DNA from: Mesostigma viride
Taxonomy: Eukaryota > Streptophyta > Mesostigmatophyceae > Mesostigmatales > Mesostigmataceae
Reading direction: 5' to 3'
DNA: 64,000 nt
NCBI GenBank assembly: GCA_009746045.1
Contig: RPFO01000310.1
Coordinates: 1,579,263 to 1,643,262 of the forward strand
Part shown: one piece after another, positions 23,423 through 34,088 of the stretch
Position numbering within the stretch: the stretch's first letter is position 1
How the letters are laid out: every line of letters begins with the position of its first letter
The notes under the pieces: model-generated
What the model was told of the DNA's origin: nothing
The model's input: only the letters and a program-made list of their open reading frames with translations
Database searches by the model: none
Program-made: the position numbers and the translations under genes

Positions 23423-24559
23423 TGTCACGGACGCGCGCTATGTCATCCGGGCGCCCACTATGCACAAGACCGGTGACGTGCGCAAGGAATTTGTCTTCTA
23501 CGCATTTTCGACAAAGGCTAGTGACCGGGGGGGGACACTAGCACTTGCAGCATAAGAGCGGACGAAAGTGTACGTGCACGCGCGCCGGGCCAGGCACAGC
23601 TGGGCGCGCAGCACTGACTTGAGCGGACGGCAGCACAAGTGTGCAGCGTCGAGAGGATCATACGCGTGTTAGTGGACAGCTGGAGCTGAAGCTGGACTGC
23701 TGGACTTCAACAGCGCCGAGGCTATTGACAGGCCAGGTGTCTTTGTGGTGTAGAATAGCGGGTCAACGTTATGAGGACTGGACAGAAAATGGAAAAGGAC
23801 AATTTGCGGTGCGGAGCCAGATCGCTGGAATGAATGCGAAATCGCTGGCAGCCCTAAAAAGGGATTTCTTCTAGAAAGGAACGATTAGACGCAATGTTTG
23901 CTGGGCCACTCACACGCAAGGTGTGAGCGTGCAGATTGTCTGAAGGATATTATGCTTCGACCTTGCTGGACGTGACTCAATGTCGGACATTCCCAGGGAC
24001 AGAAATGCCGGAGCCTCTAGGAGATGAGATCGGCAACAGGGTAGCAATTTAGATTTGTCGGGATGCCTTCCTGCTTTTGTTGGCATGTGTGGTAGAAAGC
24101 CAGGACGGCAACTGGAATGCGGTTTCTATTTGCATGGTTCAGGCAGCAAGATAGTTTGGCATTCCTGGCTGGACTGACAAGTGTGGCGTGTGTCATGCGT
24201 GTGGCATGACGAATGGTTTGGTTCATAGTCGAAGAGGACTCTCACGCAGCGTGTAGTCTCTTCGAGTCTCTCGTTAGTGGCCTTCGTGTTTCTCCCTTTC
24301 CTTGGGAGCAAGGCCGGTAGCATGTCATGGAGCGCTGCCTAACTGCGGGCTCGTGAGCATGGAGTGCATCGATATTGAGACTATCAACGTGTTGTAATTG
24401 TATTAACTTTCTCAATAAATTCCGCATGTGCGGCTTCATCATCAGACTGTGCAAATTGTGTGTTTTGAAAGCATTATTCTATAGCAGGGGAGGCAATAAG
24501 GTGGTTATCAGGCACGAGGGACAGTTCCTTGTCCTCGGCTGAGAGCCCTCCTTTCTTTA
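23423..24559 (+). repeat. Repeat B, 5' copy (LTR portion)
   Basis: 1,137 bp beginning TGTCACGGACG and ending CTTTCTTTA. It is directly followed by the internal region, without the 143-bp A segment that follows the 3' copy. It should contain the promoter and transcription start; an AATAAA-like CAATAAA lies near 24,413 (TCTCAATAAATTCC). Confidence 0.9.
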
Positions 24560-24562
24560 CTC

Positions 24563-24588
24563 GAAGAGACTACCCGGTAGTCTGCTTC
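24563..24588 (+). promoter_or_regulatory. Hairpin just after repeat B (candidate priming site)
   Basis: GAAGAGACTACC pairs with GGTAGTCT(G)CTTC with one bulged base, starting 3 nt after the B repeat. This is where a primer-binding site is expected, but no match to a tRNA 3' end was recognised. A self-priming fold, as known for Tf1-type elements, is possible. Confidence 0.5.
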
Positions 24589-24936
24589 CTTCTGTTTGAA
24601 GCCAAGACGTTGGCTTTAGTGTTTATCAACCATCAGCAGTACAGGGAACGGCCTGGCTGACAGTTTGTAAAGGAAGTGTCTTGAGACAGATTTTAAGAAA
24701 ATAGAACTAGCCAGAATTTGCTGGCTCTTGTCTTTTTCTGGCAGGCTAACCTAGGCTTGTTGGTTCTTGTTTTGCCCATCGGTCAGCTGGTGCATGCCAC
24801 TGACGCGAGCGCAGACTCGAGCCATGGCGGATGCAAATAGAGCAGATGCCAACACGTCCGCTCCGGGGTCGAATGGCGGATTCCTCCCGCCGTACCCGCA
24901 GTGGGTGAGAGTCGCGACCAAGAAGCGCCGCTGAGT

Positions 24937-32664: not shown

Positions 32665-32807
32665 AATCATGGGACAGGTCCTCGCCCACCCCACAGGGCA
32701 TGCAGTTAAGGCAGGCACATCAGCTCAGCTCATTTGGGTTTTACCAAATTAAGCTGAGTGGCCAGCCGCCATGGTGGCGCCGGAGATTGTGGCACGCAGA
32801 CGCGACA
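32665..32807 (+). repeat. Repeat A, internal copy
   Basis: 143 bp from AATCATGGGACAGG to GACGCGACA. The same 143 bp closes the element at 33,946-34,088. It contains a strong hairpin at 32,724-32,758 (CTCAGCT..ATTTGG / CCAAAT..AGCTGAG). It is joined to the following repeat B through GC, giving the perfect 10-bp palindrome GACAGCTGTC at 32,803-32,812. Confidence 0.9.
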
Positions 32808-32809
32808 GC

Positions 32810-33946
32810 TGTCACGGACGCGCGCTATGTCATCCGGGCGCCCACTATGCACAAGACCGGTGACGTGCGCAAGGAATTTGTCTTCTACGCATTTTCGACA
32901 AAGGCTAGTGACCGGGGGGGACACTAGCACTTGCAGCATAAGAGCGGACGAAAGTGTACGTGCACGCGCGCCGGGCCAGGCACAGCTGGGCGCGCAGCAC
33001 TGACTTGAGCGGACGGCAGCACAAGTGTGCAGCGTCGAGAGGATCATACGCGTGTTAGTGGACAGCTGGAGCTGAAGCTGGACTGCTGGACTTCAACAGC
33101 GCCGAGGCTATTGACAGGCCAGGTGTCTTTGTGGTGTAGAATAGCGGGTCAACGTTATGAGGACTGGACAGAAAATGGAAAAGGACAATTTGCGGTGCGG
33201 AGCCAGATCGCTGGAATGAATGCGAAATCGCTGGCAGCCCTAAAAAGGGATTTCTTCTAGAAAGGAACGATTAGACGCAATGTTTGCTGGGCCACTCACA
33301 CGCAAGGTGTGAGCGTGCAGATTGTCTGAAGGATATTATGCTTCGACCTTGCTGGACGTGACTCAATGTCGGACATTCCCAGGGACAGAAATGCCGGAGC
33401 CTCTAGGAGATGAGATCGGCAACAGGGTAGCAATTTAGATTTGTCGGGATGCCTTCCTGCTTTTGTTGGCATGTGTGGTAGAAAGCCAGGACGGCAACTG
33501 GAATGCGGTTTCTATTCGCATGGTTCAGGCAGCAAGATAGTTTTGGCATTCCTGGCTGGACTGACAAGTGTGGCGTGTGTCATGCGTGTGGCATGACGAA
33601 TGGTTTGGTTCATAGTCGAAGAGGACTCTCACGCAGCGTGTAGTCTCTTCGAGTCTCTCGTTAGTGGCCTTCGTGTTTCTCCCTTTCCTTGGGAGCAAGG
33701 CCGGTAGCATGTCATGGAGCGCTGCCTAACTGCGGGCTCGTGAGCATGGAGTGCATCGATATTGAGACTATCAACGTGTTGTAATTGTATTAACTTTCTC
33801 AATAAATTCCGCATGTGCGGCTTCATCATCAGACTGTGCAAATTGTGTGTTTTGAAAGCATTATTCTATAGCAGGGGAGGCAATAAGGTGGTTATCAGGC
33901 ACGAGGGACAGTTCCTTGTCCTCGGCTGAGAGCCCTCCTTTCTTTA
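32810..33946 (+). repeat. Repeat B, 3' copy
   Basis: Same length as the 5' copy. It differs by a T/C change in TCTATTTGCATGG, one extra T in the AGTTTTGGC run and one fewer G in the ACCGGGG run. It is continuous with repeat A at its end. Confidence 0.9.
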
Positions 33947-34088
33947 ATCATGGGACAGGTCCTCGCCCACCCCACAGGGCATGCAGTTAAGGCAGGCACA
34001 TCAGCTCAGCTCATTTGGGTTTTACCAAATTAAGCTGAGTGGCCAGCCGCCATGGTGGCGCCGGAGATTGTGGCACGCAGACGCGACA
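33946..34088 (+). repeat. Repeat A, terminal copy
   Basis: Closes the element with ...GCGACA, which forms TGTC...GACA terminal inverted repeats with the start of repeat B at 23,423. The ACCC target duplication follows. Confidence 0.9.

Follow-up and report, generated by a model that had tools for sequence, protein, structure and literature searches.

Organization of the element and of its ends

The window, that is, the whole 64-kb stretch of DNA analysed, harbors one copy of a 10.67-kb Ty3/Gypsy element (23423-34088), in which two repeats, A and B, surround and follow an internal region (int) in the order B-int-A-GC-B-A. The features of the locus are as follows:

23419-23422, no strand: left target duplication, ACCC
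23423-24559, + strand: B1, beginning with TGTC (integrase end); putatively the U3 promoter side, then R and U5
24253-24267, + strand: predicted RNA 5' end and self-primer, a perfect reverse complement of the primer binding site (PBS)
24414-24419, + strand: AATAAA, a possible poly(A) signal inside B
24559-24573, + strand: PBS, ACTCGAAGAGACTAC, directly after B and not of the tRNA 3'-end type
24901-26601, + strand: ORF1, presumed Gag, in a frame open from 24841
26415-29543, + strand: ORF2 (stop to stop), with CCHC knuckle, protease-like motif and C5-DNA methyltransferase
29513-32638, + strand: ORF3, with reverse transcriptase (RT), RNase H, integrase and PHD finger (Pfam), in a frame different from that of ORF2
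32656-32664, + strand: putative polypurine tract (PPT), GAGGGGGGG, directly before A1 (by eye)
32665-32807, + strand: A1, ending with GACA
32804-32813, no strand: palindrome GACA-GC-TGTC, with its GC spacer at 32808-32809, a built-in site at which the integrase is proposed to cleave
32810-33945, + strand: B2, beginning with TGTC
33938-33953, + strand: B2/A2 junction, CTTTCTTT followed by AATCATGG, matching the joined PBS- and PPT-defined cDNA ends
33946-34088, + strand: A2, identical to A1, ending with GACA (integrase end)
34089-34092, no strand: right target duplication, ACCC

An earlier note on this DNA had read the order of the repeats, their lengths (B 1,137 bp, A 143 bp), the TGTC and GACA ends flanked by ACCC and the palindromic internal junction from the letters, and all of these hold once the repeats are aligned. 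B1 and B2 (the latter reaching 33946 if a shared A is counted) are 99.7% identical in the alignment, the three differences being a substitution and, in runs of G and T, two indels of a single base, and A1 and A2 are identical across their 143 nt. The shared base is a single A common to the B/A edges, the end of B reading CTTTCTTT(A) and the start of A reading (A)ATCATGG. The low divergence between the repeats suggests that the insertion is young. No further piece of the element was found in the window by nucleotide self-BLAST.

The 4-bp duplication is flush on both sides, one ACCC lying directly 5' of the TGTC at 23423 and the other directly 3' of the GACA ending at 34088. The element has in this respect the TG...CA ends and the short target duplication of the Ty3/Gypsy group; the two full identical LTRs that are also typical of this group are absent from its ends, the left one consisting of B only and the right one of BA. 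The split direct repeats are those of DIRS, PAT and Ngaro elements; the lack of a target duplication, which is likewise a trait of these elements, is not shared, ACCC being present at both sides. In the target region, 23389-23407 and 34088-34106 form, by eye, an imperfect direct repeat (AGCCCTGTTGCCAAGTATT and AACCCTGTTGACCAACATT), and the bases around ACCC look like element ends (CA-ACCC-TGT).

The internal A1-GC-B2 junction reads GACA-GC-TGTC, a 10-bp palindrome with a 2-bp spacer, and the genomic ends TGTC and GACA are the two sides of this very sequence. The word GACAGCTGTC, which spans the junction, occurs once in the window. As a word it is not rare in 64 kb, being present in 12 of 100 shuffles; its weight lies in its exact placement at the junction and not in its rarity.

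Coding content

The internal region embeds three open reading frames in three frames, the passages from ORF1 to ORF2 and from ORF2 to ORF3 each being a -1 step. ORF1 gave no Pfam match at E 1e-3. ORF2 encodes a CCHC knuckle (about 26508-26558; 19.8 bits in Pfam, just below the cut-off of 20.8), a DSGA protease-like motif recognized by eye and a C5-cytosine methyltransferase (about 28062-28484; Pfam, E 2e-11), the nearest PDB chains of which are plant DRM (E 4.3e-5). Its motif order was read by eye, as was motif IV, which is GWEC, the usual form of this motif being PC. The methyltransferase is placed between the protease-like motif and the RT.

In ORF3 the RT (motif YIDD), RNase H and integrase follow one another in the order typical of Ty3/Gypsy pol, and the best PDB match of the protein is Ty3; the best-scoring integrase-only PDB match is the integrase of PFV (E 2.8e-19). 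The integrase (about 31286-31816) carries HHCC and D-x58-D-x34-E, which bears out the DDE integrase of the earlier note. No tyrosine recombinase was matched by Pfam in the three ORFs, rve and H2C2 being present instead. Chromoviruses have a chromodomain after the integrase; here Pfam matched no chromodomain, and it is a PHD finger (about 32426-32560) that lies 3' of the integrase, in the place that the chromodomain has in chromoviruses.

Programmed frameshifts at the two ORF overlaps were considered and rejected, as neither overlap contains a slippery heptamer in the frame required; three sequences of slippery type (26458, 26459 and 29515) are in the wrong frame. Because of the three frames and of the lack of a heptamer in the needed one, this copy may be incompletely coding. 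The frame steps might represent either regulation or damage in this copy.

Primers and ends defined by reverse transcription

The 15 nt directly 3' of B1 (24559-24573) are the perfect reverse complement of 24253-24267, within B. This degree of complementarity was reached in neither control: among 511 other window stretches of 1137 nt the maximum was 9, and among 800 internal 24-mers it was 12, seen in 2 of the 800. When the 388-nt leader was folded, 13 self-primer/PBS pairs appeared in the minimum-energy structure (z -2.2; equal or better folding in one of 100 shuffles); the ensemble probability of the pairing, computed on the isolated RNA, is only about 0.26 and falls to 0.13 at the inner end. 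Priming by a tRNA was rejected, since TGG is absent from 24550-24600 and the PBS is not of the tRNA 3'-end type.

Tf1/sushi elements have ordinary LTRs. According to the portions of PMC7175516 and PMC6317226 available to us, they share with the present element a complementarity between the RNA 5' end and the PBS that immediately follows the LTR (over 15 nt here, given the predicted RNA start) and the lack of a tRNA-type PBS, and they differ from it in that no chromodomain match, but a PHD finger, is found here. The putative self-primer is in this sense Tf1-like, and as a feature it is new here. Just 5' of the predicted RNA start, AGTCGAAGAGGACT (24227-24240) is by eye a near copy of the PBS; within 24227-24267 it could oppose the self-primer as a hairpin and is possibly regulatory.

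Since the PPT adjoins A1, as the earlier note had also observed, plus-strand DNA should start at AATCATGG. The minus strand should begin opposite 24558, giving a cDNA end ...CTTTCTTT, because the 3' end of the primer pairs with 24559. Thus, two independent primer landmarks, the PPT, which places the start of U3 at A, and the self-primer/PBS, which places the end of U5 at that of B, indicate that the LTR made by reverse transcription should be A-GC-B, and the B2/A2 junction corresponds to the predicted cDNA ends joined together with nothing gained or lost. The presumed integrase ends and the ends defined by reverse transcription would lie about 145 nt apart. An ancestor with an LTR of the form BA (TGTC...GACA) was rejected: the PBS lies directly after B and the PPT directly before A, so that A would have had to move precisely between two places.

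Related elements and precedent

A Gypsy element with such repeats has been described in Klebsormidium nitens: the legend of Fig. 4 of PMC5890265 reports that the repeat structure of KnitGypsy-Dnmt3, which encodes a DNA methyltransferase, is "the same as that of a DIRS retrotransposon" and that its domains are those of Gypsy, and section 9 of the same paper places the methyltransferase in the Pol ORF and reports purifying selection across copies. This is the only description that we found in the open-licence PMC literature, as far as its accessible text goes. The accessible parts of that paper gave no account of the ends, target duplication, priming or integration route of KnitGypsy-Dnmt3, and the word "circular" is absent from its main text. 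Compared by description, the two elements share the Gypsy domain set (RT, RNase H and DDE integrase), a cytosine methyltransferase in the Pol ORF and split direct repeats of DIRS type; as to the Dnmt3-type trait, the methyltransferase has the C5 methylase match (2e-11), the plant DRM chains as nearest in the PDB (4.3e-5) and a motif order read by eye. On the strength of this description, the present element looks like KnitGypsy-Dnmt3 or a relative of it. Going by the same legend, in which the number of copies is not stated, the split-repeat layout is taken to characterize the family in at least one alga, and it is because of this precedent that an inherited layout is favored over a one-off event. 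The odd repeat layout has a published precedent in one alga; what the present analysis adds is the self-primer and the end-by-end account. The earlier note had proposed that the LTR made by reverse transcription is A-GC-B, that the integrated ends lie within it and that a circle is cut at GACAGCTGTC: the PPT and the self-primer/PBS lend support to this idea, and the layout itself, in view of the legend in PMC5890265, is no novelty.

Two further kinds of elements invite comparison. SymbioDIRS-Dnmt3 of Symbiodinium, which the same source (in the part accessible to us) calls unrelated to the Gypsy one, also has split repeats (A-coding-B-A-B) and a C5-methyltransferase in Pol, but it possesses an ORF for a tyrosine recombinase and is a genuine DIRS element (PMC5890265). 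The PAT-like DIRS and Ngaro elements, as far as described in the passages at hand of PMC4157794 and PMC2685390, have split direct repeats (A1-B1-A2-B2) and, in DIRS, a methyltransferase domain; they differ in having a tyrosine recombinase and no target duplication, whereas the present element has a DDE integrase and a 4-bp one. The pattern searches revealed no relatives of ORF3 in viral contigs (4 stretches matched the pattern) or in genome contigs (8 stretches), and none of ORF2 in viral contigs (one stretch), in collections that may not include the genome to which the window belongs.

Other features of the window

Two more RT reading frames, at 1428-3674 (+ strand) and 16068-17081 (- strand), have RVT_1 matches and are, by eye, apparently of the non-LTR type. 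Two copies of a sequence lie in inverted orientation at 41246-41534 and 50992-51281, with flanking segments of 160 and 124 bp that are 100% identical; one of them contains an inverted palindrome of roughly 290 bp (95.7% over 280 columns), where the other has about 6 bases, and this palindrome looks like a recent foldback-type insertion. Tandem arrays occupy 38062-39415 (6-bp unit, 228.3 copies), 44435-44799 (6-bp unit, 60.8 copies), 45816-46664 (362-bp unit, 2.3 copies) and 48846-49660 (21-bp unit, 38.5 copies). Neither tRNA genes (bacterial-code search) nor Rfam matches were found in the window.

Discussion

In ordinary LTR elements and in retroviruses, the ends used by the integrase are those made by reverse transcription, and circles with two LTRs are for the most part considered dead ends. 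On balance, we consider it probable that the element described here is an integrase-type Ty3/Gypsy element for which B-int-A-GC-B-A is the normal, inherited integrated form, produced via a two-LTR circle that the integrase reopens. According to this model, the RNA would start inside B1 (about 24253) and end inside B2; its first 15 nt or so would fold back onto the PBS and prime the minus strand, in a Tf1-like manner, and the tract before A1 would prime plus-strand DNA, the linear product being A-GC-B-int-A-GC-B. The joining of its ends without loss would give a two-LTR circle, in which the DDE integrase would make staggered cuts at one GACA^GC^TGTC, leaving CA-3'OH ends and 2-nt 5' overhangs. 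Strand transfer with a 4-bp stagger would then yield B-int-A-GC-B-A and the ACCC duplication, and a B1-to-B2 transcript of the inserted copy would remake the same cDNA, closing the cycle. In a symbolic check, a two-LTR circle opened at the first palindrome gave the observed order. A circle opened at the other palindrome should yield BA-GC-B-int-A, and one with a single LTR should yield B-int-A; by reasoning, both are predicted to be sterile by-products, from which no full template could be transcribed.

What is known about retroviral integrases bears on this model in both directions. In the portions of the papers accessible to us, PFV integrase is reported to cut both strands of the palindrome at its two-LTR junction directly 3' of CA, which leaves a 2-nt 5' overhang, as 3' processing does (PMC1180852), and HIV-1 integrase also cuts its own two-LTR junction, the catalytic residue tested (E152) being needed (PMC1905944). 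GACA-GC-TGTC shares with the PFV junction the form CA-NN-TG, the PFV form being deduced from the cut described in that source; the difference is that the PFV palindrome arises when LTR ends are joined, and the present one is encoded inside the LTR defined by reverse transcription, about 145 nt from its edge. On the other side, the PFV junction is reported not to be cut by HIV-1 integrase, and a palindrome alone to be insufficient (PMC1905944), and two-LTR circles are regarded as dead ends in HIV (PMC5314604); these three points, in our analysis, speak against the circle model, as do the low ensemble probability of the self-primer pairing and the fact that a single copy was seen. The similarity of the ends themselves is not decisive: the proposed integrase ends show a modest inverted similarity (17/30, P 4e-4; 13/26 when the first 4 nt are excluded, P 0.007), and those defined by reverse transcription are somewhat alike too (15/30, P 0.004).

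Different routes might lead to the same layout. The family could have A-GC-B as its LTR and integrate by those very ends, and this one copy would then derive from a two-LTR circle that was opened at a look-alike internal site and integrated by accident. The same circle geometry would account for the order of the repeats, the accidental integration of a circle requires no new biology and a single copy was seen; this reading is nonetheless rather unlikely, as the ends defined by reverse transcription (AATC.../...CTTT) are not of the TG...CA type, those used (TGTC...GACA) flank a 10-bp palindrome as if it were a built integrase site, and DIRS-type repeats have been published for a Gypsy family of equal composition, according to the accessible part of PMC5890265. 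The integrase might also cut GACA-GC-TGTC in linear head-to-tail cDNA multimers, or in products of template switching, with no covalently closed circle involved; by reasoning, a concatemer cut at successive sites would give the same product, but longer intermediates would be required and nucleotide self-BLAST detected nothing more of the element in the window, so that we regard this route as improbable.

It is still harder to credit that a tyrosine recombinase acting in trans inserted the circle, as in PAT and Ngaro, with the Gypsy integrase as a passenger. Split direct repeats do mark PAT and Ngaro elements, but tyrosine recombinase elements insert without a target duplication (both points from the part of PMC4157794 at hand), and here a 4-bp one is flush with the ends; moreover, the three ORFs gave a DDE integrase with HHCC, D, D and E and no tyrosine recombinase match, and the GC spacer and the ACCC target are unequal in length, so that a simple crossover does not yield the ends. 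Least plausible of all is an assembly artefact due to collapsed or swapped repeats: repeats longer than 1 kb are hard to assemble, and two of the three differences between B1 and B2 are homopolymer indels, yet a target duplication flush with TG/CA ends, together with an exact primer-defined junction, would not result from a misassembly, and the same kind of layout appears in another study (PMC5890265, as far as its accessible text goes).

Returning to the reopened two-LTR circle as the normal route, the palindromic TG/CA ends, set against the plain ends defined by reverse transcription, also speak for an evolved site. We are inclined, with somewhat less assurance, to think that in this lineage the attachment sites of the integrase may have shifted away from the termini that reverse transcription produces, to a palindrome lying within the LTR, that circularization and reopening would have become obligatory and that the DIRS-type layout would be convergent. 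If this is true, the opening of a circle would be a required step of the cycle, the two kinds of ends being about 145 nt apart, and the element would lend itself as a natural test case for the use of circles by integrases in vivo. It would also follow that split repeats of DIRS type do not need a tyrosine recombinase in order to arise, and therefore that the layout of the repeats should not by itself serve as a basis for classification.
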